In this document: positions 11,299 to 34,712 of the stretch, piece by piece
Layout of the letters: each line of letters opens with the position of its first letter
How positions within the stretch are numbered: the first letter of the stretch is position 1
Origin: Loktanella sp.
Lineage (GTDB): Bacteria > Pseudomonadota > Alphaproteobacteria > Rhodobacterales > Rhodobacteraceae
Length of the DNA: 37,445 nucleotides
Assembly (NCBI GenBank): GCA_017390475.1
Contig: JAFPBO010000003.1
Coordinates: 1 to 37,445, forward strand
Reading direction: 5' to 3'
Translations under genes and position numbers: made by a program
Notes under the pieces: generated by a model
Seen by the model: the letters and a program-made list of their open reading frames with translations, nothing else
The model's database searches: none
What the model was told of the DNA's origin: nothing

Positions 11299-11323
11299 CA
11301 ACAGGGCCCTTTTCCGAATGTTC
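11299..11323 (-). promoter_or_regulatory. EcfG-type promoter, orphaned
   Basis: Minus strand: GGAAC (11319-11323), 16-bp spacer, TGTT (11299-11302). It points at the 14-codon remnant at 11209-11253; no intact gene lies downstream. Confidence 0.6.
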
Positions 11324-11456
11324 CAGAATAAATCTGACAGCAGGTCAGCGACCCGACCCATTACAACGCCAACGGGCGGGATCAGGGGGGAAAACTCCTC
11401 TCTCGGATCGGATAGTCTGCGATGCTGAACGTCAGACAGCGGCTGAGGGGCGAGTG

Positions 11457-12077
11457 ATGTGCAACCTCTATAACCATACGACTGCCTTGGAGGCGATGCG
11501 CCAGATTTTCAAAGATCTGAACAACAAGGCCGGCAATATCGAGGCTGGCGATGTCTATCCTGATCGTCTGGCCCCGATCATCACCCGAGATGGCGCGCAG
11601 CACCACCTGCGGCGTGCGCGATGGGGGTTGCCGTCCCCGCCGCCGTACCACAGCAAGAGCGGGATCGACAGGGGTGTGACGAATGTCCGCAACACAGCCT
11701 CGGCGCACTGGCGGCGCTTGCTGGTGCCGCAGAACCGGTGTCTGGTCCCGCTTGATCGTTTCGCAGAGCCGCGTGCGGGCAAGGGCGCAGGCAATGCATG
11801 GTTCAAGGTGACAACAGGTCAGCCCACCTTTTTTGCAGGGATCTGGGTGCCTGAATGGCGCAGTATGCGAAAGCTGAAAGACGGGACAACCACCGATGAT
11901 CTGTTCGCCTTTCTGACTTGCGAACCAAATGGCGTCGTCGCGCCGATCCACCCCAAGGCGATGCCGGTTATCCTGACCGATGAATCCGATTTCAATGCGT
12001 GGCTGTCGCAGGACTGGTCTGCGGCCAGGGCCTTGCAGCGGCCACTTGCGGATGCGCTTCTAAGTCTGGAGCCGTAG
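11457..12077 (+). CDS. SRAP (YedK/HMCES-type) abasic-site processing protein
   Basis: A 206-residue SOS-response-associated peptidase. The start Met is followed directly by Cys2, the residue that crosslinks to abasic sites in single-stranded DNA; this fixes the ATG at 11457. Other signature positions are visible: TNVRNTAS (Asn76), LDRFAEP (Glu104) and HPKAMPVIL (His165). These correspond to the Cys, Asn, Glu and His active-site set of the family. It protects single-stranded DNA with abasic lesions. No general-stress promoter was found directly in front of it. It is the first intact gene to the right of the island junction. Confidence 0.9.
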   Translation: MCNLYNHTTALEAMRQIFKDLNNKAGNIEAGDVYPDRLAPIITRDGAQHHLRRARWGLPSPPPYHSKSGIDRGVTNVRNTASAHWRRLLVPQNRCLVPLDRFAEPRAGKGAGNAWFKVTTGQPTFFAGIWVPEWRSMRKLKDGTTTDDLFAFLTCEPNGVVAPIHPKAMPVILTDESDFNAWLSQDWSAARALQRPLADALLSLEP

Positions 12078-12164
12078 CCACGACCACTGGCGGCAGGCAA
12101 TAACGGGAACGAAAATCGCGTTGAACTGCTTGGTATGACCGAGTCCAGCCGATGGAGAACGCCG

Positions 12165-12680
12165 ATGACCCGTAGTGACGATACCGACAAGACGACATTC
12201 CTTGATCCGGTGAACGAAAAACGGTCTTTGCACCTGACGGAATCCAAGATTGCATTTGCCGGACACCCGATCCACGCGATGCTTGTCGCCTTTCCCATCG
12301 CATTGACGATGTGTGTGCTGGGGGCTGATCTGTTCTATTGGTGGACAGGTGATAACTTTTGGGTGACTGCCGCTGGCTGGGCGAGTTTTGGTGCCTTTGC
12401 GATGGCGGTGATGGCGGCGATTACTGGTACGGTTGAATTGCTGATGGTGTCGGGTATCCGGAACCGTGCGGTAAGCTGGACACATTTCATTCTGGCGATG
12501 ACACTTCTATCGATCCTGGGGCTGAACTGGCTGATCCGCATTGACGCCGCGGAAGAGGCGATCCTGCCACTAGGGTTGGCGATATCGTTTCTGGCGGCGG
12601 GTATGACGGCAATTACGGGCTGGCATGGCGGTAAACTGGTCTTTGACTATCAGATTGGCACGAAGGACGATGGAAGTTGA
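12165..12680 (+). CDS. DUF2231 family integral membrane protein
   Basis: A 171-residue protein with four hydrophobic segments and the family hallmark FAGHPIHAMLVAFPIAL near residues 31-47. Function is unknown; members often sit near heme or stress genes. The ATG at 12165 has GGAG about 9 nt upstream, whereas the in-frame ATG at 12135 has none. A GGAAC at 12106 lacks a good -10 box, so stress control is uncertain here. The 3' end overlaps the end of the convergent CopD-like gene by 31 bp. Confidence 0.8.
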   Translation: MTRSDDTDKTTFLDPVNEKRSLHLTESKIAFAGHPIHAMLVAFPIALTMCVLGADLFYWWTGDNFWVTAAGWASFGAFAMAVMAAITGTVELLMVSGIRNRAVSWTHFILAMTLLSILGLNWLIRIDAAEEAILPLGLAISFLAAGMTAITGWHGGKLVFDYQIGTKDDGS

Positions 12681-13337: not shown

Positions 13338-13362
13338 AACAGGGCGGCATCGGAAATGTTCC
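13338..13362 (-). promoter_or_regulatory. EcfG-type promoter for the copD unit
   Basis: Minus strand: GGAAC (13358-13362), 16-bp spacer, TGTT (13338-13341), ending 75 bp before the 36-codon frame. Confidence 0.7.
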
Positions 13363-13394: not shown

Positions 13395-13419
13395 GGAACA
13401 TCCTTTGCGCTGGGTTGTT
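13395..13419 (+). promoter_or_regulatory. EcfG-type promoter for gene 13462
   Basis: GGAAC (13395-13399), 16-bp spacer, TGTT (13416-13419). It lies 33 bp from the oppositely directed copD promoter and 42 bp before the next start codon. Confidence 0.7.
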
Positions 13420-14177: not shown

Positions 14178-14202
14178 AGGAACATTTCAGGACCGGCATG
14201 GT
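14178..14202 (+). promoter_or_regulatory. EcfG-type promoter for the superoxide dismutase gene
   Basis: GGAAC (14178-14182), 16-bp spacer, GGTT (14199-14202), 28 bp before the start codon at 14231. The -10 deviates in its first base from the TGTT used elsewhere. Confidence 0.6.
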
Positions 14203-14230
14203 TGGTAGGTTTGAAACAAAGGAGAATCCT

Positions 14231-14917
14231 ATGAAACAGCCCCTTGCTATCTTCGCATTGATGACATTGCCGATTGCCGCATTCGCGCAGGACGACGGTG
14301 CGTTCACGCTGCCGGACCTTCCCTATGCAACCGATGCGCTGGAGCCGATGATCAGTCAGGAGATCATGGAACTGCATCATGGTGAGCATCATCAATCCTA
14401 TGTCGATAATCTGAATGATGCGATCAGTGCCGGTGATGCACCATCCGGCCTTTTGATCGAAGAACTGGTTGCCAATGCCGGATCCTATCCCGACAGCATC
14501 CGCAACAATGCGGGCGGGCATTGGAACCATACGTTTTTCTGGGCAACGATGGCACCCGCCGATGAAGCGGGCGAAATGTCGGATGAATTCGCAACAGCGA
14601 TCACCGCCGTCTATGGATCAGAAGAAGACTTCCGCACCGCCTTTGAAGAGGCGGGGGCCGACCAATTTGGGTCTGGCTGGGTGTGGTTGATCGTCAATGA
14701 ACAAAACGAGCTGGAAATCACGACGACGCCCAATCAGGACAACCCGCTGATGGATATCGCCGAGGTGAACGGAACGCCAGTTCTCGGCAATGACGTTTGG
14801 GAGCATGCCTATTATCTGGCCTACGAGAACCGCCGAGGCGAATATCTGGAAAGCTGGTGGGATGTGGTCAACTGGGACGAAGTATCAAAACGCTATCTTG
14901 CTGCCTTGACCGACTAG
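14231..14917 (+). CDS. Exported Fe/Mn superoxide dismutase
   Basis: 228 residues with a clear signal peptide (MKQPLAIFALMTLPIAAFAQ, cleavage near residue 20) and a complete SOD fold. Metal ligands are visible: His49 (ELHHGEHH), His100 (WNHTFFW), Asp188 and His192 (NDVWEHAYYLAY). GGHWNH in place of the iron-type AAQVWNH and the Gln in PNQDNPL (about residue 169) favour a manganese-type or cambialistic enzyme. It should dismutate superoxide in the periplasm, where alphaproteobacteria more often use Cu/Zn enzymes. Start at 14231: AAAGGAGAA lies just upstream. It is driven by its own stress promoter. Confidence 0.92.
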   Translation: MKQPLAIFALMTLPIAAFAQDDGAFTLPDLPYATDALEPMISQEIMELHHGEHHQSYVDNLNDAISAGDAPSGLLIEELVANAGSYPDSIRNNAGGHWNHTFFWATMAPADEAGEMSDEFATAITAVYGSEEDFRTAFEEAGADQFGSGWVWLIVNEQNELEITTTPNQDNPLMDIAEVNGTPVLGNDVWEHAYYLAYENRRGEYLESWWDVVNWDEVSKRYLAALTD

Positions 14918-14990
14918 CGCGTTTGAAACCCGCGGCTGGCAACCCGATTGCCAGCCGCATTGCCGACTTTTGCGGAACTGGAAAAACTCA

Positions 14991-15015
14991 GGAACATCCG
15001 CAGCCGCCGCCTGTT
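14991..15015 (+). promoter_or_regulatory. EcfG-type promoter for the PRC-barrel gene
   Basis: GGAAC (14991-14995), 16-bp spacer, TGTT (15012-15015), 31 bp before the start. Another GGAAC at 14973-14977 has no -10 box at the right distance. Confidence 0.65.
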
Positions 15016-15046
15016 GATCCGATATGTCAACAAATGGAGAAGTATG

Positions 15047-15448
15047 ATGGCTGACAACATGCACAAACCCGCGGGGACCGTGGCCGATGATCCGGATTCG
15101 TTCAATCAATCGCATGACCTGATCGCGTCCAACAAGGTCGAAGGCACCAATGTCTACAGCCCTAATGACGAAAAGATCGGAAGCATCTACAACTTCATGG
15201 TCGACAAGAAAAGCGGCAAGGTAAGCTATGCCGTGATGTCGTTTGGTGGGTTTCTTGGCCTTGGCGAACGGTATCATCCGCTGCCGTGGGATAACTTGAC
15301 CTACGACACAAATGTTGGCGGCTACGTCGTGAACGTCACGCGCGAACAACTGGATGATGCGCCAAGCTATGCGATGGACGAAGATCCGTGGAACGATCCT
15401 GCATACGGCCGCAGGGTCCATGAGTATTACGGCACCCCGTACATTTGA
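15047..15448 (+). CDS. PRC-barrel domain protein
   Basis: 133 residues. The central part DLIASNKVEGTNVYSPNDEK followed by IGSIYNFMVDKKSGK is a typical PRC-barrel opening, and GGFLGLGERYHPLPW continues it. PRC-barrel proteins of this type are common small soluble stress proteins; their partner is mostly unknown. GGAG lies 7 nt before the ATG at 15047; an ATG directly before it (15044) is equally possible. The stress promoter lies upstream. Trehalose genes follow 45 bp downstream on the same strand, with a hairpin between, so read-through into otsBA is likely. Confidence 0.85.
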   Translation: MADNMHKPAGTVADDPDSFNQSHDLIASNKVEGTNVYSPNDEKIGSIYNFMVDKKSGKVSYAVMSFGGFLGLGERYHPLPWDNLTYDTNVGGYVVNVTREQLDDAPSYAMDEDPWNDPAYGRRVHEYYGTPYI

Positions 15449-15460
15449 CCGATAAGACAG

Positions 15461-15480
15461 GCGGGCGCGAAAGCGTCCGC
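15461..15480 (+). terminator. Hairpin between PRC-barrel gene and otsB
   Basis: An 8-bp stem (one G-U pair) with a GAAA tetraloop. No run of T follows, so it is more likely an mRNA processing or partial attenuation structure than a full terminator. Confidence 0.4.
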
Positions 15481-15493
15481 CATTGGGTGTCCC

Positions 15494-16228
15494 ATGCCAG
15501 ACTTTCCCCCGCACAGATTATCGCCTGCCGAAACGGCTTTCTTTCTGGATGTCGACGGCACCCTTGCAGAGATTGTGCCGGCCCCGCAAAGCGCCCGCGT
15601 TGCCCCGCCTGTTTTGGACGTCCTCGATCAGCTTTGGGTGTTGTCGGGCGGTGCGCTGGCGCTGGTGTCGGGCCGTTCCATCGACCAGATTGACCAGATT
15701 TTATCTCCCTTGCGCCTGCCTGCGGTGGGGGTTCACGGGCTTGAACGTCGCTTGGCGGACGGGCAGGTCAGGCGGGCTGATTACAGCGAAATCAGCTATG
15801 ACGCATTGGTGGCTTTGGTGACGGATTTTGCGCAGCGCCATACCGGGTTGCAGGCGGAACCCAAGCCCGGCGCGGTTGCGCTGCATTATCGCAAACGCCC
15901 TGATCTGGCAGAAATTTGCCTAACGTTCATGCAAGAACAGGCGGCCGCAGACCAACAGTTGGCCCTGATGAAAGGAAAGATGGTCCTTGAACTGATCCTT
16001 GGGCGGCAGACCAAAGGCGTTGCGGTCGGAAATCTGATGCAAGTGCCGCCCTATGCCCGTCGGCAACCTTTCTTTGCCGGTGATGATGTCACCGACGAGG
16101 CGGCGTTCGACTATGTGAACCAGCATGGGGGAATATCCGTCAAGATCGGGCATGGTACCACCTGTGCGCGCTATCATCTGCACAATCCCGAGGCACTAAG
16201 ACGCTATCTGAAGACGATTTTGGATTGA
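15494..16228 (+). CDS. otsB: Trehalose-6-phosphate phosphatase
   Basis: A 244-residue HAD-superfamily phosphatase that removes the phosphate from trehalose 6-phosphate. Motif I FLDVDGTLAEI (about residues 16-26) carries the nucleophilic Asp and the acid/base Asp; SGRSIDQID is typical of OtsB; VLELILGRQTKGVAV and the acidic motif FAGDDVTDEAAF (about 194-205) close the active site. Full length and in frame. It precedes otsA, with which it makes the compatible solute trehalose. No promoter of its own was seen, so it probably depends on the unit starting at 14991. Confidence 0.92.
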   Translation: MPDFPPHRLSPAETAFFLDVDGTLAEIVPAPQSARVAPPVLDVLDQLWVLSGGALALVSGRSIDQIDQILSPLRLPAVGVHGLERRLADGQVRRADYSEISYDALVALVTDFAQRHTGLQAEPKPGAVALHYRKRPDLAEICLTFMQEQAAADQQLALMKGKMVLELILGRQTKGVAVGNLMQVPPYARRQPFFAGDDVTDEAAFDYVNQHGGISVKIGHGTTCARYHLHNPEALRRYLKTILD

Positions 16229-16302
16229 TCGTCAGCGGGTTGGAACATCTGCAACCTTTGCAGGTTCGAACAGGTCGTAACCCAACAACAGGCCCCATCC
16301 AC

Positions 16303-17766
16303 ATGACAATCCGACCCACACCCCCGCGTATTCCCATCGGCACCGACGCATGGCCTGACGAAGAAGGCCTGCCATCATTATCGTCCGGCACGGGTCAGAA
16401 CCGGCTTGTCGTTGTTTCAAACCGTGTGGCGGATCTCAGCGCCTCTAGCCAATCGGGGGGGCTGGCGGTTGGGTTGTTGGATGCTATCCAAGAAAAAGGC
16501 GGCATATGGTTCGGATGGGATGGCAACCGCGACGGCAAGAACGGCGGGCCGATGCAGATACGTGACCACGGGTCTGTCACGACTGTGGGGATCCCGATTT
16601 CGCCTCAGGATTTCACGGAATATTATTCCGACTATGCCAACGGGCTGTTGTGGCCGCTGTTTCACTACCGGCTGGACCTTGTCCATATCAGTGCGACCGC
16701 CTTTGACGGCTATATGCGCGTGAACGAGGCTTTTGCCCGCCAGTTGCTGCCGCTGCTGAAACCGGATGATGTGATCTGGATACATGATTATCATCTGATC
16801 CCGCTTGCAGGCATCCTGCGCCGGTTGGGGTGCCGCCAGAAGATCGGGTTTTTTCTGCATATCCCGTTCCCGCCACCAGAGCTGTTGTCGGCAACGCCGG
16901 ATCACGAGGCGCTGGTGAACGGCCTGCTGGATTATGATCTGCTGGGGTTTCAGACCCATACCGATGTGAACAACCTCAAATCCTATCTTGCGGCGCATAA
17001 AGCGGATGTCGTGGTCAAAGGGGGTTACGTCACATCCGGTGAACGGCGGCTGCGGATTGGGCGCTTTCCCATCGGCATCGACGCCACTGATTTTGCACGG
17101 CTGGCGCGCACAAATAGCCCTGATGCGGTGCTGGCGCAAACGCAGGTCGGATCGCCTGCCTTGCAGCGTATCATCGGGGTTGACCGGCTGGATTATTCCA
17201 AGGGCCTGCCGGAACGGTTCAAAGCCTTTGACGAACTTTTGCTGGCGCATCCCGAGCTTGCCAAGCAGGTCAATTTTGTGCAGATCGCTCCGCCAACGCG
17301 TGGCGAGGTGGATGCCTATGCCGAAATCCGTGCCGAGCTTGAACAGCTGGCCGGTGCGATCAATGGACGTTTGGCCGATATCGACTGGACGCCGCTGCAA
17401 TATATCTGCCGGCCCCTGCCGCGTGACGTGATTGCGCCGTTGATGCGGCACAGCAATATCGGTTTTGTGACGCCGCTGCGAGACGGCATGAACCTTGTTG
17501 CCAAAGAGTATGTCGCGGCACAGGACCCTGATGATCCGGGTGTGCTGATCCTGTCGCAATTCGCTGGTGCCGCTGAGGAAATGCAAGAGGCGCTGATCGT
17601 CAACCCATATGACGTGGATGATATGGCAAAGCAGCTTTATCGCGGGCTGACAATGCCGCTGGAAGAACGGCGCACCCGTCATGCCGCATTGCTGTCGCAT
17701 GTCGTTTTGCACAGCGCAAAGTATTGGGCTGCGGCTTTCCTGTCGGACCTGAACGGCAGGGACTGA
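16303..17766 (+). CDS. otsA: Trehalose-6-phosphate synthase
   Basis: A family 20 glycosyltransferase joining UDP-glucose and glucose 6-phosphate. Recognisable motifs: RLVVVSNRVADL and SGGLAVGLLDAI at the N-terminus, WIHDYHLIPLAGILRR, GVDRLDYSKGLPERFKAF with the phosphate-binding Arg and Lys, and TPLRDGMNLVAKEYVA near the C-terminus. With the ATG at 16303 the product has 487 residues, close to the usual 460-490. An in-frame TTG at 16225 that overlaps the otsB stop would add 26 residues and is possible, since neither start has a good ribosome binding site. Confidence 0.93.
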   Translation: MTIRPTPPRIPIGTDAWPDEEGLPSLSSGTGQNRLVVVSNRVADLSASSQSGGLAVGLLDAIQEKGGIWFGWDGNRDGKNGGPMQIRDHGSVTTVGIPISPQDFTEYYSDYANGLLWPLFHYRLDLVHISATAFDGYMRVNEAFARQLLPLLKPDDVIWIHDYHLIPLAGILRRLGCRQKIGFFLHIPFPPPELLSATPDHEALVNGLLDYDLLGFQTHTDVNNLKSYLAAHKADVVVKGGYVTSGERRLRIGRFPIGIDATDFARLARTNSPDAVLAQTQVGSPALQRIIGVDRLDYSKGLPERFKAFDELLLAHPELAKQVNFVQIAPPTRGEVDAYAEIRAELEQLAGAINGRLADIDWTPLQYICRPLPRDVIAPLMRHSNIGFVTPLRDGMNLVAKEYVAAQDPDDPGVLILSQFAGAAEEMQEALIVNPYDVDDMAKQLYRGLTMPLEERRTRHAALLSHVVLHSAKYWAAAFLSDLNGRD

Positions 17767-17797: not shown

Positions 17798-17823
17798 GGA
17801 ACAACGGGGCCCGGGCCAATGTT
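17798..17823 (+). promoter_or_regulatory. EcfG-type promoter for the SDR gene (17-bp spacer)
   Basis: GGAAC (17798-17802), 17-bp spacer, TGTT (17820-17823). It is the only copy in the window whose best fit needs 17 rather than 16 bp. Confidence 0.55.
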
Positions 17824-17861: not shown

Positions 17862-18953
17862 ATGACCGATACTCCGAAAAACAACGAAGACGTGCCACCG
17901 ACCATCTCGGAAGGGAACAAACACTTGCGGCATGAAGACGATGACGCAATTGACCAGCGCCAACAACAGACCGATCCGGAAGGCAAGCCCCTTGCCGATC
18001 CGAACCCCGAAGGGGGTAGCGCGATGAAACAGTCGGGCGCTTCTGGGGACAACCAGCAAGGGCAGGGCGATACGCCTGCCAGGCTTGGGTCGCGGGCGAA
18101 ATCCTATCCCCGTCCGCCATTCCCCGAACAGACACAGGAACTGCCCGGAAGCTTTGCGCAGATGGAACCGCGGCCTGATCATGGTGAACATTCGTGGAAG
18201 GGGGCAGGGCGGCTAAAGGGCCATGTTGCGCTGATCACTGGCGGTGACAGCGGCATTGGGCGTGCCGTCGCGATTGCCTATGCCCGCGAAGGCGCCCATG
18301 TCGCGATCAGCTATCTGGATGAAAGTGCCGATGCCAAGGACACCGAAAGCGTGATCCTTGAATGTGGCCAGCAATGCCTGCTTTTGCCCGGTGACATCTC
18401 GGACGCCGCGCATTGCCGCGCGATCGTTGCCGCTGTTGTCGAAGAATTCGGGCGGATCGACATTCTGGTGAACAATGCCGCGCATCAGCAGCTGTTCAAC
18501 GATATCGATGAAATCACCGACAAGGAATGGGAACGGACTTTTGCGATCAATATTCACGCGATGTTCTATCTGAGCAAAGCCGCAGTTCCGCATATGAAAG
18601 ACGGCGGGTCCATCATCAACTCGGCGTCAATCAATTCTGACCAGCCGAACCCTTCGCTTTTGGCTTATGCGACGACGAAAGGCGCGATTCAGAACTTTAC
18701 CGCAGGTTTGGCGCAGATGCTGGCGGAAGACGGCATCAGGGTGAATTGCGTGGCACCGGGCCCGGTCTGGACACCGCTGATCCCGGGGAGCTTTTCGGGC
18801 GAAAAAGTCTCTGAATTCGGGGCGAATTACCCGATGAAGCGGCCCGCCCAGCCGGTCGAGCTTGCCTCGAGCTATGTGATGCTGGCCGAGCCTATGTCCA
18901 GCTATGTATCAGGGGCGACAATCGCGGTGACGGGTGGCAAGCCGATGATCTGA
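17862..18953 (+). CDS. Stress-type short-chain dehydrogenase with disordered N-terminus
   Basis: 363 residues. The first 110 or so are polar, low in hydrophobic residues and probably unstructured (NEDVPPTISEGNKH, QRQQQTDPEGKPLADPNPEG). An SDR domain follows: LITGGDSGIGRAVA (about 124-137), LVNNAAHQ, a Ser in INSASINSD, and the catalytic YATTK (about 268). This matches the YhdF/YghA-type oxidoreductases found in general stress regulons; the substrate is unknown. Its stress promoter ends 38 bp upstream. A strong hairpin follows the stop. Confidence 0.88.
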   Translation: MTDTPKNNEDVPPTISEGNKHLRHEDDDAIDQRQQQTDPEGKPLADPNPEGGSAMKQSGASGDNQQGQGDTPARLGSRAKSYPRPPFPEQTQELPGSFAQMEPRPDHGEHSWKGAGRLKGHVALITGGDSGIGRAVAIAYAREGAHVAISYLDESADAKDTESVILECGQQCLLLPGDISDAAHCRAIVAAVVEEFGRIDILVNNAAHQQLFNDIDEITDKEWERTFAINIHAMFYLSKAAVPHMKDGGSIINSASINSDQPNPSLLAYATTKGAIQNFTAGLAQMLAEDGIRVNCVAPGPVWTPLIPGSFSGEKVSEFGANYPMKRPAQPVELASSYVMLAEPMSSYVSGATIAVTGGKPMI

Positions 18954-19004: not shown

Positions 19005-19370
19005 TCAAGGGTAGGTTGCGATCAACACCACCAGCGCGACGAACGCAAGAATTGCCACTGTTACCAGCCCGGACCGCCCCGGCCCGGACGGGCCAATTTT
19101 CGGGTCTGTCGCAGTATGCGGCTTGGCGCTGTCAACGCCGGGCACCCTGACGGGGCCGCGCTGGTCGGTCGTGGTCGGAGTATCGGGATCAATGACATCA
19201 GCATCGCGGATCCCGTAGCTGGGCACCTCGCGCAGATGGGTCCGGTCGCCCGGGGTCTTGTCGGTGCTTTGTTCGGCTGTCACCTGCGTGGCGTCATCAC
19301 GCCCTTTGCCGGCGTCCAGATCGGCGCGCAGGCGCGCGGCGGATTGTGCTTTTTGGGTGGGGTCGGACAT
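19005..19370 (-). CDS. Tail-anchored protein of unknown function
   Basis: 121 residues: a long charged, Pro/Thr/Asp-rich soluble part (MSDPTQKAQSAARLRADLDA at the start) and a single hydrophobic helix at the very C-terminus (SGLVTVAILAFVALVVLIAT, about 98-118). The layout suggests a membrane-anchored disordered protein. No family recognised. GGAGGAACC before the ATG is a strong ribosome binding site, and a stress promoter lies at 19399-19423. The terminator at 18964-18994 ends the transcript. Confidence 0.75.
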   Translation of the reverse strand: MSDPTQKAQSAARLRADLDAGKGRDDATQVTAEQSTDKTPGDRTHLREVPSYGIRDADVIDPDTPTTTDQRGPVRVPGVDSAKPHTATDPKIGPSGPGRSGLVTVAILAFVALVVLIATYP

Positions 19371-19398: not shown

Positions 19399-19423
19399 AA
19401 CAGGCTGGACTTGTGATTGTTCC
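19399..19423 (-). promoter_or_regulatory. EcfG-type promoter for gene 19005-19370
   Basis: Minus strand: GGAAC (19419-19423), 16-bp spacer, TGTT (19399-19402), 28 bp before the start codon. Confidence 0.7.
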
Positions 19424-19468: not shown

Positions 19469-19957
19469 TCAGTCAAATTTGACGTGTTTGCGTGTGTGCA
19501 CGTCCTGCGCGGACTTGGCTTTAATATGCATGCTGTGATGCGACACGTCTTCGGACAGCGCCCAGATCGCTGCATCTTTCAGGTCCAATGCGATCATCAT
19601 CAGCGACGGATCGTTTTTATCGTCGGCAAACATCTGGGCGAGGGTTGTGTTCCACAGCGCGTCGAGGATCGCCGTGTCATGTTGCTGGCTGATGGGGCCG
19701 GACATACAGGCGTAAAAGTCATGGTCTTTCGAGATGATGACAAAATGCGCCGTGCTGTCGGGCTGAAGCGCTTTTGCCAGATCGGTATCATCCTTGGTCA
19801 GAAACCAAAGCCGTTTGCCTGCGGCATCCACTTGCTACGCCATCGGCTGCATATGTTGCCCGCTGCCTTCGATGCCGAGCATCCCCGCCTCGAGGGATTC
19901 AAGCTGTGTCCAGAGAAGGTCTTTGGGGTTGCTGCGGGCGTGTTCAAGGTCGGTCAT
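19469..19957 (-). pseudogene. PNPOx-like general stress protein with in-frame TAG
   Basis: Minus strand, ATG at 19955-19957 behind AGGAG. The first 40 codons (MTDLEHARSNPKDLLWTQLE, then GMLGIEGSGQHMQPMA) are followed by TAG at 19835-19837, and the same frame continues with DAAGKRLWFLTKDDTDLAKA, VIISKDHDFYACMSG and TLAQMFADDK to the stop at 19469. The whole matches FMN-binding split-barrel stress proteins of about 160 residues. The N-terminal piece holds strands of the flavin site, so both parts are needed. One nonsense change, a sequencing error, or read-through would explain it. A GTG at 19829-19831 could start a 120-residue remnant. Confidence 0.75.
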
Positions 19958-20248: not shown

Positions 20249-20285
20249 TGCATCCATTCCTCTTGCTTTCGCAATGTATCTGATC

Positions 20286-24616: not shown

Positions 24617-24627
24617 GGGAGCGAACA

Positions 24628-26387
24628 ATGACGCAATTGCACCGTGAGGTAGATGTCGTGCTGGCGGGTTTCGGCTGGACGGCTGCCATTCTGGCCCATG
24701 AACTGACGCAGGACGGACTGGAGGTTGTCGCACTGGAACGCGGTGGCTGGCGCGACACGCCGACAGACTTTCCGACGACGCATGCGCCCGACGAATTACG
24801 TTATTATTGGCGCCACGAGATGTTTCAGGAAACCGCACAGGAAACCCAGACCTTTCGCAACCGGCGCGGCCAGACAGCTTTGCCGATCCGGCGCTGGGGT
24901 TCGTATCTGCCCGGTGTCGGCGTTGGCGGTGGCGGGGTCCATTAGAACGGGCAGACCTTTCGGTTCATGCCGTCGGACTTTCTGGCTCGCAGCCATAACG
25001 AAGATCGCTATGGTCCGTTGCCCGATAATATGACCGTGCAGGATTACCCTGTCACTTATGACGAGCTGGAACCTTATTTTGACCAGTTTGAAAAGCTTTG
25101 CCGTATTTCCGGTCAGGCGGGCAACCTGCGTGGCGATATCCGTGCGGGGGGCAATCCGTTCGAAGGCTGGCGTAGCGACGAATACCCCAATCCACCGATG
25201 GAAATGACATTTTCACAGCACCGTTTTGCGGAAGGGGCGCATGACATGGGGTTGCACCCCTATCCCGGACCTTCCGCGAATATGAGCAGGGCTACACCAA
25301 CCCTTTGGGCGTCAGGCTTGCACCTTGCACATATTGCGGCTTTTGCGAAAAATTCGGCTGCGGAAACTATTCCAAGGCAAGCCCGCAGACCACGATCCTG
25401 CCGGTTGTCATGCAGCGGCCCAATTTTCGCCTGCGCACGTATTGCGACGTGCTGCATGTCAACAAAGACCGTGACAACACACGTGCGACTGGCGTGACCT
25501 ATGTCGATGCCCATGGTGACTTGCATGAGCAGCCCGCCCAAATTGTCATTCTATGCGGTTATCAGCTGTCCAACACGCGGTTGATGATGCTGTCCGGCAT
25601 TGGCGAGATTTATAATCCGGCAACCGGCGAAGGTCAGGTCGGGCGCAACTATACCTATCAGGTGATGTCAGACGTCGATGTGTTCTACGACGATGCCTAT
25701 ACCAATGAATATATCGGGGCAGGGGCGCTTGGGATGGTGGTCGACGACTATAACGGCGATAATTTCGACCATTCCGGGCTTGGGTTTATCGGGGGCGCCT
25801 ATATCGCCTGCTGGACGACCAATGCTCGCCCGATTGAAAACCAGCCCGTTCCTGAAGGTGTGCCGGAATGGGGGGCGGAGTGGAAAAGCGCGTTGCAAAA
25901 GAATTTCCTGCGCCATACGTCGCTGTCGGTACATGGCGCGTCGATGGCCCATCGCGAGAATTATCTTGATCTGGATCCGGTCTACAAGGACCGTTACGGG
26001 CGGCCTTTAATGCGGATGACCTACGATTTTACCGTGAACGACCGCCGCCTTAGCGAACATATCACGCCGATTGCCGCTGATATTGCCCGCGGCATGGGCG
26101 GGCGCGAAATCAAGGTAAATTCGCTGGATGCGTCGTATGACATCTGGCCCTATCAAACCACGCATAACACTGGCGGAACCATCATGGGGGCCAGCCCTGA
26201 CGATAGCGTCGTGAACCGCTATTTGCAAAGCTGGGATCTGCACAATCTGTTCGTTATGGGGGCAGGGGCCTTTCCGCAGAATGCGGGCTATAATCCGACT
26301 GGCACCGTTGCAGCACTGACTTATTTTTCGGCCCGCGCGATCCGCTACCAATATCTGCGCGACTCCGGCCCGCTGGTGCAGGCATGA
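24628..26387 (+). pseudogene. GMC oxidoreductase (dehydrogenase large subunit), doubly broken
   Basis: Begins normally behind GGGGAGCG with the FAD site VDVVLAGFGWTAAILAHEL. At GVH-stop-NGQTFRFMPSDF the conserved Trp of VHWNGQT is replaced by TAG (24943-24945). A second lesion lies at about 25,291: after NMSRA the frame slips by a missing base, and the family sequence resumes as YTNPLGVRLAPCTYCGFCEK in another frame. The rest is well conserved to the end (THNTGGTIMGAS, then GAFPQNAGYNPTGTVAAL). Intact, it would be a 580-590 residue periplasmic flavoprotein passing electrons to the cytochrome encoded next. Its stop overlaps that gene by ATGA. Confidence 0.85.
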
Positions 26388-27610
26388 TCTGCGCGCGCGC
26401 GATAGTGGCCTTGGGCCTGGGGGGTATCATGCAAACCGCAGCGGCGCAGGATCTGTCATGGTCCGAAATCGAGCGTGGTCGCTATCTGGCGATTGCGTCG
26501 AATTGCGTCAGTTGCCATACCGATCTGGATCATGACGGCACGCCCTGGGCCGGCGGGCGCGAGATGGAGACGCCTTTTGGCGTGATCGTTACGCCAAATA
26601 TCACCTCAGACGACGCCACCGGCATCGGCCGCTGGACGCGCGATGATTTCTGGCGCGCCCTTCACGAAGGCCGCCGGCGTGACGGATCGTATATGTATCC
26701 GGCCTTTCCCTATACACATTTCACGCGGATGCCGCGGCAGGATGTCGATGCGATCTATGAATATCTGCGCACCATTCCCCCCGTCGAGGCCCATCACGTC
26801 CCTGAAGAGGAGCTGTTATTACCGCTAAGGGAGCGCACTACGATTAGTGCCTGAAACGCGCTGCATTTCGATCAAGGTGTGTTTGTGCCTGATCTGGATA
26901 AATCGGACGAATGGAACCGGGGCGCCTATCTGGTCACGGGGCCGGGTCATTGCGGGGCTTGCCACACCGACCGCAACATATTGGGCGGCGAGCAGGAGGA
27001 TGAATTCCTGCGTGGCGCGACGCAGGAAAATTGGCATGCGCCCAATATCCGCGGTGGCGAACACGGCGGCATCGCGCATTGGTCGCACGACGATATCGTG
27101 GCCTATCTGGGCAGTGGACGGAACGAACATACTGCGTCCATGACGCGGATGGGCGAGGTGGTGGAATTCTCTACCCAGCATCTGACAGAAGGCGACCTGG
27201 GTGCCATAGCTACCTATCTCAAATCGCTTGAAGACACGCGGCGCGATGCCAGCGATCCCCCCGAAGAAGCTGTGTTGCAAGCGGGACAGGCAACCTATTT
27301 CGATAATTGCGCCGCCTGTCATCACGCGGACGGCAGTGGCGAGGCATATATGTTTGCCCGCCTAGCGGGGTCCAACAAGGTGCAGTCGGATGACCCGACC
27401 ACGCTGATCCGCATCATTCTTGAAGGGGCGCAAGCCATACCAACCAACGACCATCCCGGCCCGCTGGCTATGCCTGCCTTTGATTGGAAACTGGACGACG
27501 ACCAGATCGCCGATCTCATCACCTATATGCGTAACGCTTGGGGCAACAACGGACCGGCCGTCAGCGCTTCTGAGGTTGCCGACTTGCGCGAAACGCTGGG
27601 CGAGGATTAA
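26384..27610 (+). pseudogene. Triheme cytochrome c dehydrogenase subunit with in-frame TGA
   Basis: A signal-like N-terminus is followed by three heme motifs: NCVSCH (residues 40-45), HCGACH and NCAACH. This is the layout of the cytochrome subunit of membrane-bound alcohol, gluconate and sorbitol dehydrogenases, about 410 residues. After the first heme domain the frame is closed by TGA at 26852-26854, exactly where relatives have the Trp of VWNALxFDxGVF; the same frame then continues with NALHFDQGVFVPDLDKSDEW to 27610. A single G-to-A change explains it. The second piece alone would lack a signal peptide. Confidence 0.85.
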
Positions 27611-27632: not shown

Positions 27633-27657
27633 GGAACTTTCCCCGACGTTTAATGTT
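27633..27657 (+). promoter_or_regulatory. EcfG-type promoter for the exoD-like gene
   Basis: GGAAC (27633-27637), 16-bp spacer, TGTT (27654-27657). The leader to the start at 27773 would be about 110 nt, longer than in the other units. Confidence 0.55.
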
Positions 27658-28829: not shown

Positions 28830-28854
28830 AACAGGGGCCCCGGCAGAATGTTCC
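28830..28854 (-). promoter_or_regulatory. EcfG-type promoter for the DUF1622 gene
   Basis: Minus strand: GGAAC (28850-28854), 16-bp spacer, TGTT (28830-28833), 42 bp before the start codon. Confidence 0.7.
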
Positions 28855-28899: not shown

Positions 28900-28924
28900 G
28901 GAACAAGGTCGTGATCCGGCTGTT
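28900..28924 (+). promoter_or_regulatory. EcfG-type promoter for the symporter gene
   Basis: GGAAC (28900-28904), 16-bp spacer, TGTT (28921-28924), 31 bp before the start at 28956 and divergent from the DUF1622 promoter. Confidence 0.7.
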
Positions 28925-28955: not shown

Positions 28956-30534
28956 ATGCCAGAATTTACCGTCACCACCCCGGATTTCACGATCGCTGTA
29001 GTTTACATCGTTGTCGTTATGGGGATCGGGCTGTGGGTCAGCCGGTCCCAGAAGGACAGCAAAAGCTATCTGGGCGGCGGCGGCGTTCTCTGGCCGGTTA
29101 TCGCCATTTCGATGATGTCCGGCCAATCTGTCCGGCACGTCCTTTGTTGGTCTGGCAGGGGCGGGCTATGAACACGGCATCGCGGTCTGGAACTACGAAT
29201 GGACCGCAACGCTGGTGCTGATCTTTTTCTCGCTGTTCGTGCTGCCGTTCTATTTGCGATCCAAGGTCAGCACGATGCCGGAATTTCTGGAACGGCGCTA
29301 TGACACGCGATCGCGCAAGGTTTTTGCGGCGTTTTCTGTGTTTACGGCCATTGTGATCGACAGCGCGGGCGCGTTGTTTGCGGGGTCGCTGACCCTGAAA
29401 CTGTTGTTCCCCGAAGTGCCGCTGTGGATATTGATCGCCAGCATCGCCTTTCTTGGTGGAGTTTACGTCATCTTTGGCGGCCTCAAGGCGGTGATGGTGA
29501 CGGATACGATCCAAGGCGTGCTGCTGATTATTGTGGGTGCCGTGATCTTTTATCTGACCTTCACACAGATCGGATCGTGGGAAGGCGTGCGCGAAGCCGC
29601 GCCCGAAGGTGGCTTTACCATCACCCCGCCTGCCGATGACGATTTTTTCCCGTGGCCTGGCATATTTACCGGCGCGATCTGGCTTAGCTTTTACTATTGG
29701 ACCACAAATCAGGTGGTGGTTCAAAAGGTGCTGGCCGCCAAAAACCTTGACCACGGGCGCTGGGGTTTGCTGCTGGCGGGTGGGATGCAACTGCCGTTTC
29801 TGTTCATTCTGGTGCTGCCCGGCGTCATGGGGCGGGATATCTTTCCCGAGATCGGTGATGCTGACCAGATCTGGCCCGCGCTTGTCTTTGGGCTGCTGCC
29901 CGAAGGGTTGCGTGGCCTTGCGCTGGTGGCGTTGGTCGCGGCCTTGATGTCCACGGTGGATTCCGTCCTGAACGGCAGTGCTTCGCTGGTCGTCAATGAT
30001 TTCGTCAAACCGCGTAAAAAGGAAATGAGCGAGGAAAAAATGCTGCTGCTAAGCCGGGTGCTGGTCGGCATCTTTATGGTGCTGGCGGCGATCTGGGCGC
30101 CCATTATCGGGTCGTTCGGTGGTATCGTGGAATATTTCCAATCGTTTGTGGGCTACATCACGATGCCGGTCGCGGTTGTCTTTCTGGGCGGCCTGTTCTG
30201 GGCCCGCCCGCCGCGACATGCCGCGTTCTGGACATTGTCCATCGGTATCCCGATCGGCATCGCCTGTTTCACAGCCTTCGAGGCGCTGGAACTGATCGAC
30301 CTGCAATTCCTTTACGGGACCGGTCTGATGCTGCTGATGAACCTTGCGATCTTTGTCACGATCACCTTCCGGCCCGAAGCGCCTGATCTGAAAAAAGGCG
30401 AAGACGTCTGGAGCCGCTAAAGCTGGCGCAAGGATCGCGAAGCGCTGGCTGACACGCCGCTGTGGAAATCGCATCATATGTGGTCGGTCTTGCTGATCGT
30501 TGTCACGCTGGCGATGGTTGTGTTTTTCATCTGA
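28956..30534 (+). pseudogene. Sodium:solute symporter (SSS family), broken twice
   Basis: Starts at 28956 behind CGGAGAAA with FTIAVVYIVVVMGIGLWVSR and the family segment SYLGGGGVLWPVIAISMMS. At about 29,120 one extra base (GGCC where GCC is expected) breaks the frame; the family sequence goes on as ANLSGTSFVGLAGAGYEHGI in the next frame, through STMPEFLERRYDTRSRK. A TAA at 30418-30420 then interrupts the end, yet the same frame continues with SWRKDREALADTPLWKSHHM and a last membrane helix to TGA at 30532-30534. Unbroken, it would be a transporter of about 525 residues for a sugar or similar solute. The adjacent decayed dehydrogenase suggests one abandoned carbohydrate function. Confidence 0.85.
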
Positions 30535-30612: not shown

Positions 30613-30840
30613 TCAAGTACGCGTAATAACTTCTTGGGTTTTCGTCAGAAGAAACCGGTTTTCATCCAGCGGTTTTACCTTGGTCCCGTTGCCCAGAACG
30701 AAACGGTGTGACTTTGGTTTGAAAGAAACGTGAGACCCTTTTTGCCTGTGTTGGTCTTTTTTCCACTGCTCGATGACTGACAAATGTGCGCCAGAACGAT
30801 CAGCGCACAAAATGACAGAGACATTTGTCCATTCATCCAT
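30613..30840 (-). CDS. Small protein of unknown function
   Basis: 75 residues, basic in the middle (WKKDQHRQKGSHVSFKPKSH), without membrane helix or signal peptide. AAAGGAA lies 6 nt before the ATG, which supports expression. No family recognised. It lies at the end of the AT-richer stretch that separates the symporter remnant from the sigma factor gene, and has no GGAAC-type promoter upstream. Confidence 0.5.
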   Translation of the reverse strand: MDEWTNVSVILCADRSGAHLSVIEQWKKDQHRQKGSHVSFKPKSHRFVLGNGTKVKPLDENRFLLTKTQEVITRT

Positions 30841-31210: not shown

Positions 31211-31235
31211 GGAACGGGTCAGGTGAAATCGCGTT
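31211..31235 (+). promoter_or_regulatory. EcfG-type promoter for the sigma factor gene (best match)
   Basis: GGAAC (31211-31215), 16-bp spacer, CGTT (31232-31235). This matches the published alphaproteobacterial general-stress consensus in all positions and lies 30 bp before the sigma start, implying autoregulation. Confidence 0.75.
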
Positions 31236-31265: not shown

Positions 31266-31802
31266 ATGCAAGAGACGACTGACCCAGAGAAAATCGCCCA
31301 TAAGGATACAAGCGACGTACTGCAGTTCCTTCCTGCGTTGCACGCCTATGCCCGCAGTTTGACTAGGCAGTATGGCGAGGCAGATGATCTGGTCCAAACC
31401 ACCCTGATGAAAGCGATTGCGAATTATGCGCAGTTTCGGAAAGGGACGAATCTGCGTGCGTGGCTGTTCACGATCATGCGCAACACGTTCCTAAACGAGA
31501 TAAAAAAGCGCACACGCGAAATGCCTGCTGCCAAGGATTGCGCATCGTCGATGAGCACCTGCGCGCCTGCCCATGATTATCACATAGAAGGCCAACGACT
31601 GATACGGGCCATTGCACGATTACCCCAGCACTACCGGGAAATTCTAGTTCTAGTTCTTGTGATTGGTGAGACGTACGAAAACGCATCGGCGATCTGTGGT
31701 TGCGAAATGGGGACAGTGAAAAGTCGATTGAACCGCGCCCGCGCCATGTTGATCGAGGATCTGGGTTCGTCTGACCTGGATGATTTTCTAGCCACCCAGT
31801 GA
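31266..31802 (+). CDS. ECF sigma factor, EcfG (general stress) type
   Basis: 178 residues. Region 2: FLPALHAYARSLTRQYGEAD with DLVQTTLMKAIANYAQFRKG, then TNLRAWLFTIMRNTFLNEIK. Region 4: LPQHYREILVLVLVIGETYE with SAICGCEMGTVKSRLNRAR. The GTNLRAWLFTI(M/L)RN and CGC(E/A)xGTVKSR(L/V)NRAR blocks are those of the EcfG-like group that directs RNA polymerase to GGAAC-N16-CGTT promoters. The start at 31266 follows GAAAGGG; an in-frame GTG at 31242 is less likely. A promoter of its own type lies directly upstream. Other ECF groups also use GGAAC -35 boxes, so assignment to EcfG rests on the protein and its setting. Confidence 0.85.
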   Translation: MQETTDPEKIAHKDTSDVLQFLPALHAYARSLTRQYGEADDLVQTTLMKAIANYAQFRKGTNLRAWLFTIMRNTFLNEIKKRTREMPAAKDCASSMSTCAPAHDYHIEGQRLIRAIARLPQHYREILVLVLVIGETYENASAICGCEMGTVKSRLNRARAMLIEDLGSSDLDDFLATQ

Positions 31803-31951: not shown

Positions 31952-31976
31952 GGAACGGCCGGAAGCCCTGCGTGTT
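31952..31976 (+). promoter_or_regulatory. EcfG-type promoter for the DUF421 gene
   Basis: GGAAC (31952-31956), 16-bp spacer, TGTT (31973-31976), with about 107 bp of leader before the start at 32084. Confidence 0.55.
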
Positions 31977-32623: not shown

Positions 32624-32641
32624 CATCGCACCTAGGCAAGG

Positions 32642-33394
32642 GTGCAACACCCACAAACCGGGCAACCGGTGACGCTGCACCTGTCGGGGCAGAAACGGTT
32701 TGCGTCCGGTCTTGGGCTGGTATCGCTGGCGGTAATCAGCGGGGAAACGGCCGATGGCGCCACGCGGCTGGTCATGGCCCCTGCCGATGATACGCGCCGC
32801 GCCCACCCGACGCCGTGGCAGGTCAGCGGCATGCGCGCAACGCTGTCGGGCAATTTTGATGCCGGCGGACTGCGTCTTTCGCGCCATGCGTTTCTGGGCG
32901 GGCCGGATGATTATCACCGAGAGCCGCATTTCCACGGCGGCGTCTGGCGCTATGCCGCCGCGCAACTAGGCGGGATCGAGGCGTTGGTTGAGGCGATGCG
33001 CAGTGATCTTGCTGCGCAAGACCGTTTGTCCGACCCGCATCAGGCCGTGCGTTTTGCACATGGCGTGATGGCGTGTGAAACGGCCCGATTGTGGATCGAA
33101 AAGGCTGCATTCGCTGTGGAAATGCGTGACGCAGACCCGACGACGGCAACGCAATCTGTCATGGCGCGGCTGATTGTCGAACGCGCAGCGACCACGACCA
33201 TATCTGATGTTGATCGCGCGCTGGGGTCGGCGTCTTTTTTCAGCGGCCACGCCGTCGAACGCATCCGCCGCGATTTGTCTTTCTATCTGCGGCAGGCGGC
33301 ACCAGACGCAGCATTGCAGCGCGTCGCGGCTGCCTTGGCGGAAACTGCCGGACCTGTCGGCGACTTCTGGACAGCATCGTCATGTTGCGGCTGA
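32642..33394 (+). pseudogene. Acyl-CoA dehydrogenase-like protein lacking its N-terminus
   Basis: 250 residues from a GTG at 32642. LSGQKRFASGLGLVSLAVIS corresponds to the middle beta domain of acyl-CoA dehydrogenase-like proteins, and EPHFHGGVWRYAAAQLGGIE with ACETARLWIEKAAFAVE to the C-terminal helical domain. About 100 residues that should form the N-terminal helical domain are missing, and an in-frame TAG lies two codons before the GTG. An internal start with shortened product cannot be excluded, but loss of the 5' end next to the DUF421 gene is simpler. It overlaps the deacetylase gene that follows. Confidence 0.65.
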
Positions 33395-34101
33395 GCGAGA
33401 TGATGATCCGTGCCGCAACCGCGCCTTTTGCCGCGATGGACGACATCTTGGGATCATGGGGGCTTGTCGTGCTCGCGCCGCATCCGGATGACGAAAGCCT
33501 TGGCTGTGGCGGATTGTTGCGCGAGGCAGCGATGGCGGGACGGTGTGTTGCGGTCATCGTCGTCACGGATGGCCGGTTGTCGCATCCAAATTCGCCCAGC
33601 ATTGATGGCGATATGCTTGCGCAGATGCGGGCAGCGGAACTGCGGGCGGCGGTCCATGCGTTGCATACGGAGATCACGGTCCATGATCTTGGCTTTCGCG
33701 ATTGTCACATCGCGGACACATCACCTGCGGCAGTCGCGGCGATCGTGTCGGTCATGGATGCGGTCGCAGCAACGGCTTTGGTGATGGCGTGGCAAGGCGA
33801 TCCCCACAAGGATCACGTCGCCACCGCCGCCCTTGCCCGGCAGGCGGCTGCCCGCCATGGGCAAGCAAAACTCTGGAGCTATCCGATCTGGGGCCGGTTT
33901 TCGGAATACGACGGTGCCGTGCCTGCGGGGATTGACCGCTTTGATACCGAAGCGCATCAGGCCGCGAAAACAGCAGCTATTGCCTGCCATCGCAGCCAGA
34001 TGACCGACCTGATCACGGACGATCCACAGGGGTTCGTGATGGCTCCCGCCATGCAGATGCATTTCATCCATCACCCAGAGGTGTTCCTTGCCGACACTTG
34101 A
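33382..34101 (+). CDS. PIG-L family deacetylase
   Basis: 239 residues. The zinc-binding signature APHPDDESLGCGGLL (about 32-46) and the second His region WQGDPHKDHVATAALAR (about 138-154) are both present, as in LmbE/PIG-L N-acetyl hydrolases acting on sugars or glycolipids. Length and motifs are intact. It overlaps the upstream acyl-CoA dehydrogenase fragment by 13 bp and the downstream methyltransferase by 14 bp, so the three formed one operon. Related roseobacter operons, as I recall them, also contain a glycosyltransferase, which is absent here. Confidence 0.88.
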   Translation: MLRLSEMMIRAATAPFAAMDDILGSWGLVVLAPHPDDESLGCGGLLREAAMAGRCVAVIVVTDGRLSHPNSPSIDGDMLAQMRAAELRAAVHALHTEITVHDLGFRDCHIADTSPAAVAAIVSVMDAVAATALVMAWQGDPHKDHVATAALARQAAARHGQAKLWSYPIWGRFSEYDGAVPAGIDRFDTEAHQAAKTAAIACHRSQMTDLITDDPQGFVMAPAMQMHFIHHPEVFLADT

Positions 34102-34699
34102 TATTCATACGCATCTGGCCAATCTATATGCGGCAGCGGATGATCCATGGAACACCCATGCCAGCCCTTATGAGCAAGGCAAATTTGCCAAGACCGTGCA
34201 AAGCCTGCCGCGTACGCAGTATCGCTGCGCGCTGGAGGTTGGCTGTGGCGCGGGGGCATTGACGGCACATTTGGCGCCGCGTTGTGATTATCTGATCGCG
34301 ACGGATTGCACCGAACGCGCACTGTCGGTGGCACGGTCTCGTGTGACTCATCCGCATGTCACTTTCACCCACGGTTCAGTTCCCGCCGACTGGCCGAATG
34401 CCGTGCCTGATCTGATCGTGTTGTCAGAGGTGCTGTATTTCTTGACCGATGCAGAAAGCGTCGGATTGGCCGCACGTATCTGTCAGGACACCGCCGCTGA
34501 TACCGATATCGTTATGGTGAATTGGTCGGGCGACACCGGCGGGCTTATCAGTGGCAGGCAGGCCGCTGACCGGCTGGTCACGGACCTTGGCCATAGCTGT
34601 GAGTGTACCTTTTCGCAAGTCTGCAGCGGGTTCAGCATCGAGGTTTTGCGCAAAGGCAGCTTTCCGCGCATCGGTCAGATGTTTTCCGGAACAACATAA
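34088..34699 (+). CDS. SAM-dependent methyltransferase (NodS-like)
   Basis: 203 residues with a TTG start inside the end of the deacetylase gene. LYAAADDPWNTHASPYEQGK and ALEVGCGAGALTAHLAP (motif I, about 48-64) with DLIVLSEVLYFL mark a class I methyltransferase of the NodS type, which methylates amino sugars or similar acceptors after deacetylation. This agrees with the PIG-L enzyme upstream. The gene looks complete. The stress promoter of the following unit begins inside its last 12 bp. Confidence 0.85.
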   Translation: MPTLDIHTHLANLYAAADDPWNTHASPYEQGKFAKTVQSLPRTQYRCALEVGCGAGALTAHLAPRCDYLIATDCTERALSVARSRVTHPHVTFTHGSVPADWPNAVPDLIVLSEVLYFLTDAESVGLAARICQDTAADTDIVMVNWSGDTGGLISGRQAADRLVTDLGHSCECTFSQVCSGFSIEVLRKGSFPRIGQMFSGTT

Positions 34700-34712
34700 C
34701 CGTCGGCATGTT
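34688..34712 (+). promoter_or_regulatory. EcfG-type promoter for the yqjD/yqjE-like unit
   Basis: GGAAC (34688-34692), 16-bp spacer, TGTT (34709-34712). It lies partly within the end of the methyltransferase gene, 88 bp before the start at 34801. Confidence 0.65.

Follow-up and report, generated by a model that had tools for sequence, protein, structure and literature searches.

Sigma factors of the EcfG type (extracytoplasmic function (ECF) group ECF15) are known from the canonical EcfG/NepR/PhyR system, and an extra EcfG is present in about half of completed alphaproteobacterial genomes, an occurrence described in 2013 as not satisfactorily explained (PMC3892343); a review of 2021 gave the pattern of non-canonical EcfG factors as undetermined (PMC8103513). 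We describe here a stretch of 37,445 bases (the window) that forms the whole of contig C1, 0.9% of a 4.13 Mb Loktanella sp. genome in 56 contigs. The region from 11.3 to 34.7 kb (about 23 kb) is, with fairly good confidence, a self-contained accessory stress regulon, furnished with an EcfG-type sigma factor of its own, a probable anti-sigma factor that is divergent but NepR-like, and some 16-18 stress-gene promoters.

The window has in common with the canonical system the sigma factor domains, the GGAAC -35 element, the spacer of 16 or 17 bases (N16/17), the GTT of the -10 element and the stress genes. It differs in that the sigma factor belongs to a separate clade, GGAAC is followed by A, the -10 element is biased to T or G, there is no PhyR, and the sigma gene lies beside neither nepR nor phyR, a divergent NepR-like protein being encoded 7.6 kb away. 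Among accessory systems, EcfG2 of Rhizobium etli (PF00052, on plasmid p42f) is similar as a plasmid-borne extra EcfG with no adjacent PhyR or NepR and with targets of its own; no motif was reported for these targets, and only one of 19 downregulated units fits the CGTT consensus (PMC3892343). RpoE5 (ECF15) of Sinorhizobium meliloti is similar in that RpoE2, the main stress sigma factor, switches it on from a GGAACC promoter, and in that an unannotated NepR-like open reading frame (ORF) lies downstream on the opposite strand (PMC6180224), as in three loci of the present collection (L060, L082 and L038). It differs in that one putative target was reported on overexpression (PMC6180224); RpoE5 is not in the trees presented here. 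Caulobacter SigU, Sphingopyxis EcfG1 and EcfG2, and Methylobacterium EcfG1-6 likewise represent EcfG paralogues within one genome, several of them in a cascade, and differ in that the targets reported are mainly shared and the motif reported for Sphingopyxis is CGTT.

EcfG-type sites in the window

The window contains 20 matches to GGAAC-N16/17-NGTT, against a mean of 1.95 and a maximum of 6 in 100 dinucleotide shuffles. They are listed below, where GGAACA-N15 denotes the N16 form with A after GGAAC, and GGAACA-N16 the corresponding N17 form.

11300-11324, minus strand: GGAACA-N15-TGTT, at the left edge of the island; downstream just a 14-codon ORF was read
13338-13362, minus strand: GGAACA-N15-TGTT, 181 nt upstream of a CopD-like gene
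13395-13419, plus strand: GGAACA-N15-TGTT, upstream of hypothetical gene 13462
14179-14203, plus strand: GGAACA-N15-GGTT, upstream of Fe/Mn superoxide dismutase
14991-15015, plus strand: GGAACA-N15-TGTT, upstream of a PRC-barrel gene
16242-16266, plus strand: GGAACA-N15-GGTT, upstream of otsA
17798-17823, plus strand: GGAACA-N16-TGTT (N17 form), upstream of a short-chain dehydrogenase/reductase (SDR) gene
19399-19423, minus strand: GGAACA-N15-TGTT, upstream of hypothetical gene 19005-19370
19629-19653, minus strand: motif match within a PNPOx-like gene, probably due to chance
20286-20310, minus strand: GGAACA-N15-AGTT, at the start of hypothetical gene 19997-20287
21080-21104, minus strand: GGAACA-N15-TGTT, upstream of hypothetical gene 20386-21030
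21226-21250, plus strand: GGAACA-N15-TGTT, upstream of a DUF892 gene (ATG 21306)
23347-23371, minus strand: GGAACA-N15-TGTT, 392 nt upstream of an MscS gene
23813-23837, plus strand: GGAACA-N15-TGTT, upstream of gluconate-2-dehydrogenase-type genes
27633-27657, plus strand: GGAACT-N15-TGTT, upstream of an exoD-like gene
28830-28854, minus strand: GGAACA-N15-TGTT, upstream of a DUF1622 gene
28900-28924, plus strand: GGAACA-N15-TGTT, upstream of a sodium:solute symporter (SSF) gene
31211-31235, plus strand: canonical-type CGTT site of the sigma gene, the sole CGTT of the island, ending 30 nt before ATG 31266
31952-31976, plus strand: GGAACG-N15-TGTT, 107 nt upstream of a DUF421 (YetF) gene
34688-34712, plus strand: GGAACA-N15-TGTT, upstream of genes 34801-36627 (a short coiled-coil-like protein, Holin-X/YqjE-like, DUF3618)

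A first-pass annotation had read this region as a general-stress regulon island under about seventeen EcfG-type promoters. All 17 of the sites that it listed are present, two of them one base further on than given (11300 for 11299, 14179 for 14178), and three had been missed: 16242 on the plus strand, and 19629 and 23347 on the minus strand. Its description of the sites also stands. The spacer is N16 in 19 of the 20 and N17 only at 17798, while spacers of N14, N15, N18 and N19 give 1, 1, 2 and 1 matches, respectively; the first base of the -10 element is predominantly T (16 sites; G 2, A 1, C 1); the base following GGAAC is usually A (17; G 2, T 1); and a scan of the window found none upstream of 11300, in agreement with the earlier statement that the first 11 kb are free of sites. 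As it had also maintained, most sites precede transcription units: in 15 cases out of 20 a same-strand start follows no more than 100 nt after the end of the site, and in a sixteenth after 107 nt, leaving 11300, 13338, 19629 and 23347 with no same-strand start that near. This placement is partly circular, because start codons were selected among the in-frame options. By the gene models checked, 17 sites are free of coding overlap, though 84% of the 11.3-34.7 kb region is coding; those at 20286 and 34688 touch just the first or last bases of a gene, and 19629 is intragenic.

The comparison with shuffled sequence and with the rest of the genome, by which the annotation had proposed that its claim be judged, comes out in its favour. 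The genome contains 211 matches to GGAAC-N16/17-NGTT, of which 20 fall in the window (binomial P 1e-14), and the reversed control pattern gives 375, so that over the genome as a whole the motif does not exceed its control. GGAAC-N16-TGTT occurs 50 times (reversed, 47), 15 of them in the window. The strict motif, defined as GGAACA-N15-(G/T)GTT, has 39 matches in the genome, of which the window accounts for 15 and the other contigs for 24, and since the reversed control gives 15 a few genuine strict sites outside the window are possible. Chance or base composition as the source of the sites was ruled out by the shuffles, the reversed genome control, the strict-motif counts and the control spacers described below. 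The site excess is real, and the sites are very likely the promoters of an accessory EcfG regulon.

The accessory sigma factor and its clade

31266-31802, plus strand: accessory EcfG-like ECF sigma factor; reading frame open from GTG 31242, probable start ATG 31266; Pfam Sigma70_r2, PhyR_sigma2 and Sigma70_r4_2

Its product scores above the Pfam cut-offs for PF22029, PF04542 and PF08281, as expected of an EcfG/ECF15 protein, and is 45% identical to the host's canonical EcfG, encoded on contig C3. The C3 gene adjoins genes for PhyR, NepR and a HisKA_2 histidine kinase, with CGTT sites around. A second set of PhyR, NepR and HisKA_2 kinase genes, with divergent CGTT sites, is found on contig C9 (locus L001, 10446-13432); no EcfG-like sigma gene lies within the C9 stretch retrieved, and it is possible that this set is the partner of the accessory sigma factor. 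PhyR was found in the host on C3 and C9 only. With respect to the EcfG/ECF15 consensus GGAAC-N16/17-CGTT, the window sites fit in the -35 element and spacer, while C begins the -10 element in one of 20, as against 13 of 17 sites in the C3 and C9 stretches (P 1.4e-5); these stretches were chosen for their site clusters, and some of the 17 are overlapping pairs. The genome has two more EcfG-like sigma genes, at G000:C24:91677 (41% identity) and G000:C11:22294 (34%, the match containing an in-frame TGA), and no GGAAC-N16/17-NGTT was found in the stretches retrieved around them.

Homologues were gathered from the genomes of relatives, from plasmids (11 regions read, one record each) and from one scan of GTDB genomes, in which 80 loci were kept from at least 538, 23 of them (L143-L165) as a negative control only. 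From the 110 rows, 7 were dropped for the main tree (103 proteins) and 22 for a reduced tree (88 proteins), being non-alphaproteobacterial, partial or long-branched. In the main tree the window sigma factor falls in a clade of 40 accessory EcfG proteins with support 98/93; in the reduced tree the 36 remaining members stay together and admit no other row, at 86/98 and in 84% of 200 bootstrap trees. In both trees it is on a separate branch from canonical EcfG. Clade members come from Roseobacteraceae, Paracoccaceae, Rhizobiaceae, Phyllobacteriaceae, Stappiaceae, Chelatococcaceae, Brucellaceae and Pleomorphomonadaceae, families of the orders Rhodobacterales and Hyphomicrobiales. The nearest relative of the window protein is from a Loktanella metagenome-assembled genome (about 95%); a close homologue occurs in one of 35 genomes of the same genus, some of them incomplete (G029, 67%; next best 47%). 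R. etli EcfG2 (L085) differs in lying just outside the 40-member clade, a weakly supported position in which its own fork has 84/68.

For comparison of the loci, stretches extending to about 10 kb from each sigma gene were used: 40 accessory loci (769 kb), and 39 canonical loci (734 kb) out of 51 canonical-side rows, the 12 remaining rows being counted separately. A PhyR gene lies within about 10 kb of 35 of the 39 canonical sigma genes and of none of 39 accessory ones (L006 was left out of the accessory count). The best match of the clade profile in the PDB is 5uxx_A, and chain B of the same entry is NepR. The -10 element is read by the region 2.4 loop, in which some of the clade-typical residues are located: C100 in 32 of 40 members and G96 in 38 of 40 (A in the window protein), as against D96 in 38 of 39 canonical proteins.

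Two promoter codes

In the accessory loci N16 sites number 229 and N17 sites 88, where control spacers average 19.5 each; in the canonical loci the numbers are 208 and 73, where control spacers average 24.8. Clustering is common to both EcfG groups, and the view of the first-pass annotation that such clustering is in itself unusual was dismissed, since canonical loci are equally dense. It is the code that differs. The base after GGAAC in accessory N16 sites is A in 125, C in 46, T in 39 and G in 19, and in canonical N16 sites C in 100, T in 48, G in 43 and A in 17; the first -10 base is G in 92, C in 57, T in 54 and A in 26 of the former, and C in 109, T in 45, G in 34 and A in 20 of the latter. 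By Fisher's test, on sites that are not independent, the difference in A after GGAAC (125/229 versus 17/208) gives 7e-27 and that in -10 C (57/229 versus 109/208) gives 4e-9. Leaving out the window and its near-copy L086, 118 of 217 accessory sites still have A, and adding the 12 extra canonical-side rows brings the canonical totals to 216 N16 sites, 18 with A and 112 with -10 C.

It might be argued that the two codes reflect base composition or lineage effects in acquired DNA that carries ordinary EcfG promoters, and not two sigma specificities. Gene content does differ among the accessory loci compared, and many sites come from related loci and hence are not independent, but at the control spacers of these loci the base that follows GGAAC shows no such bias (per spacer, A 4.6, C 5.1, G 5.6 and T 4.2), and we consider this account very improbable.

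In several genera the strict motif is concentrated around the gene for the accessory sigma factor: 15 of 17 matches lie within 32 of 613 kb on a Roseinatronobacter plasmid, 8 of 9 within 39 of 593 kb in Martelella and 5 of 7 within 19 of 512 kb in Roseivivax, and in whole genomes the proportions are 7 of 26 (G029), 7 of 28 (G060) and 6 of 28 (G061), over ranges set after the matches were seen. On the 642-kb R. etli p42f, 10 of 28 matches to GGAAC-N16-(A/G/T)GTT (reversed control, 13) fall within 12.5 kb around ecfG2, two of the 10 being one palindrome. That system differs in having A or C after GGAAC, and no GGAAC-N16-(A/G/T)GTT site was found upstream of katG, a named EcfG2 target.

An unlikely, though more serious, alternative is that the host's canonical EcfG serves most of the sites, TGTT and GGTT merely tuning promoter strength, with the accessory sigma factor as a minor amplifier akin to SigU. 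Sphingopyxis EcfG uses TGTT promoters with reduced output (PMC7083833), Caulobacter SigU is reported as having no separate regulon (PMC4814048), and the accessory sigma gene is itself under a CGTT site. Tuning through the -10 element does not, however, account for the concurrent shift in the base after GGAAC, and the concentration of the strict motif at accessory sigma genes across several genera also speaks against this alternative.

Several observations nevertheless count against two cleanly separated codes belonging to two clades. CGTT makes up 57 of the 229 accessory N16 sites, and the T of the window's -10 elements is atypical of the clade, in which G is the most frequent base. Sites are sparse in some accessory loci (none in L107, a single one in L082 and in L096), the 12 canonical-side rows left out amount to 231 kb with only 8 N16 sites (control spacers, 4.7 each), and the genome-wide strict count of 26 in G029 barely exceeds its control of 20. 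Support for the clade falls in the reduced tree to the values given above. The plasmid location of the clade is partly a search effect, because 7 members derive from the plasmid collection, and G029 carries its accessory sigma gene on a 3.84 Mb contig. Finally, the use of TGTT by the canonical EcfG of Sphingopyxis, at lower output (PMC7083833), and the activation of a CGTT-type promoter by R. etli EcfG2 in Escherichia coli (PMC3892343) mean that the two codes may overlap.

A uniform EcfG regulon that departs from the norm only in its -10 element was dismissed as a full account, given the two promoter codes in genome and clades. The earlier reading as a general-stress regulon therefore stands in part: EcfG-type sites do precede stress genes in one region, but to take them as sites of the general-stress sigma factor with a variant -10 element is incomplete, since the canonical EcfG, PhyR and NepR are encoded elsewhere with CGTT sites, and the window carries a second EcfG of a separate clade, with A after GGAAC and a -10 element that mostly does not begin with C. 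Unusual instead are three features: a promoter code apart from the canonical one, strict-motif sites gathered within the island, and an anti-sigma candidate to match.

A NepR-like ORF family

23476-23637, minus strand: divergent NepR-like ORF of 53 amino acids, GTG start preceded by AAGGA, core DEPVSDEIRELAKKLQ; candidate anti-sigma factor

The Pfam NepR profile (PF18557) found nothing on contig C1, and this ORF was recovered from the reading frames together with a new profile, started from four such ORFs; the family profile rests in part on the window ORF. The four-sequence profile picked up ORFs of this kind, at E below 1e-4, in 22 more accessory loci. After two profile rounds, matches at E<=1e-3 were present in 27 of 40 accessory loci, in none of the 39 canonical loci or the 23 non-alphaproteobacterial ECF loci, and in no reversed DNA; the best canonical match, just past the threshold, is the host's own NepR. 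Because the profile was trained on accessory loci, it is these controls and not the E-values that carry weight. In one profile-profile comparison (hhalign), bearing on a possible remote homology of the EPVPD core, the family matched seven canonical NepR proteins with a probability of 90.4% and an E-value of 1.4e-6. A canonical NepR profile in turn found NepR in 35 of 39 canonical loci and gave matches in 5 accessory loci (E<=0.01), of which 4 are ORFs of the NepR-like family and the fifth, in L138, is a separate canonical-type NepR. The NepR-like ORF directly adjoins the sigma gene in several loci (L082, L038, L060).

It is doubtful, in view of these matches, that the ORFs are small stress proteins or spurious reading frames and not anti-sigma factors, although the searches of PDB and Pfam lend that possibility some substance. 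In PDB, the two top places go to p47 chains (E 0.09 and 0.14), and NepR chains come third and seventh (E 0.24 and 0.5), not at a significant level. Of 12 family members, 3 are matched weakly by Pfam NepR (best E 1.8e-4); the L038 ORF scores 20.5 bits against a cut-off of 25.7, and there is no match to any of the small ORFs that flank the sigma gene in L035, L036 and L079.

Other results tell against an anti-sigma family confined to this clade. The window protein itself has no Pfam NepR match at E<=1; in 13 of the 40 accessory loci the stretch searched yielded no NepR-like ORF, nor was a match found in L085, the R. etli EcfG2 locus. L142, outside the clade, has such an ORF (one of 10 other loci), and the first-round profile also matched canonical-side L122 at 9e-5. 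L138 (Cereibacter changlensis) carries its canonical-type NepR ORF (8496-8927, plus strand) beside the NepR-like one. The family is best named NepR-like, not NepR, and the product of the window ORF is probably a NepR-like anti-sigma factor.

Proposed wiring of the regulon

A site lies within 150 nt upstream of the sigma match in 21 of the 40 accessory loci and is CGTT in 16 of these; after merging of near-copies, CGTT is found at 10 of 14 sigma-gene sites, as against 71 of 307 other sites. Most of the 27 entries for NepR-like ORFs have no site within 600 nt upstream. The probable course is that under stress the chromosomal PhyR-NepR-EcfG switch becomes active, and that canonical EcfG then transcribes the accessory sigma gene from the CGTT promoter at 31211; the accessory sigma factor would in turn transcribe the island. 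The NepR-like protein would act as a separately expressed brake on the accessory sigma factor, a brake lifted perhaps by one or other of the PhyR proteins that the host encodes on C3 and C9. Such a cascade with a separate brake fits the data because the sigma-gene sites are mostly CGTT and the NepR-like ORFs mostly have no upstream site.

Genes of the island and its left flank

The remaining island genes were assigned from Pfam matches, the main ones being as follows.

14231-17766, plus strand: superoxide dismutase, PRC-barrel, OtsB and OtsA stress genes
17862-18953, plus strand: SDR oxidoreductase
19469-19831, minus strand: PNPOx-like gene
21851-22954, minus strand: MscS-type mechanosensitive channel
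23876-27610, plus strand: gluconate 2-dehydrogenase subunit 3, GMC oxidoreductase (frame broken) and cytochrome c pieces

Further families in the window are DUF892, ExoD, DUF1622, sodium:solute symporter, DUF421, PIG-L, methyltransferase, Holin-X (YqjE-like) and DUF3618. The genes downstream of sites thus include stress-protection functions such as would be expected of a general stress regulon (superoxide dismutase, OtsA/OtsB, PRC-barrel, DUF892, SDR, ExoD and others). The CGTT cluster on C9 (L001) holds paralogues of the window DUF2231 (71%; 9953-10468, minus strand) and CopD-like (51%; 3847-4350, minus strand) genes, so similar stress genes occur under both promoter codes.

Some reading frames are irregular. 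The GMC oxidoreductase gene (24628-26387) has an in-frame stop near 24945 and a frame shift near 25300, reflecting either a decayed gene or an assembly error, and the frame of the SSF symporter gene (28956-30420) changes near 29.17 kb, ATG 28956 being out of frame with the main frame 29215-30420. A 75-residue protein with no convincing Pfam family is encoded at 30613-30840 on the minus strand, with homologues in L060 (44%) and L035 (37%).

The first 11 kb, free of sites, encode by Pfam an integrase, an IS110 transposase, an SNF2 helicase, ParDE, a TIR-domain protein, a Fic protein and a TetR regulator; those for the TIR-domain and Fic proteins lie side by side at 8119-10090 on the minus strand with ParDE adjacent, a possible defence or toxin-antitoxin cluster. 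At 11059-11331 the start of an SDR gene (Pfam adh_short, residues 10-48 only) is truncated where the island begins on its left side, and a recombination junction near 11.2 kb is likely. Broad DNA likeness of the island to plasmids was sought and rejected: just seven records matched, each over at most 15% of the query.

Significance

No published account of a GGAACA-(G/T)GTT motif or of the NepR-like family was found in the open-access literature; new here are a promoter code additional to the canonical one, the NepR-like family and the self-contained layout. We rate as an even bet the wider proposal that the island exemplifies a widespread class of alphaproteobacterial cassette, in which an accessory EcfG clade with its own code GGAACA-N15/16-(G/T)GTT and its own NepR-like anti-sigma family has its targets packed around it and is linked to the host by way of a promoter of the canonical EcfG type in front of its sigma gene. 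If this is true, a cassette that plugs in through that promoter would allow a stress regulon to be gained in one transfer, with the host's own regulon not rewired. The analysis offers three things that can be tested directly, namely a concrete motif, a rule of layout and a candidate family of anti-sigma factors, and names a candidate sigma factor/promoter pair that may be partly insulated from that of the host; it also suggests a route by which a stress regulon may move between bacteria as a unit.

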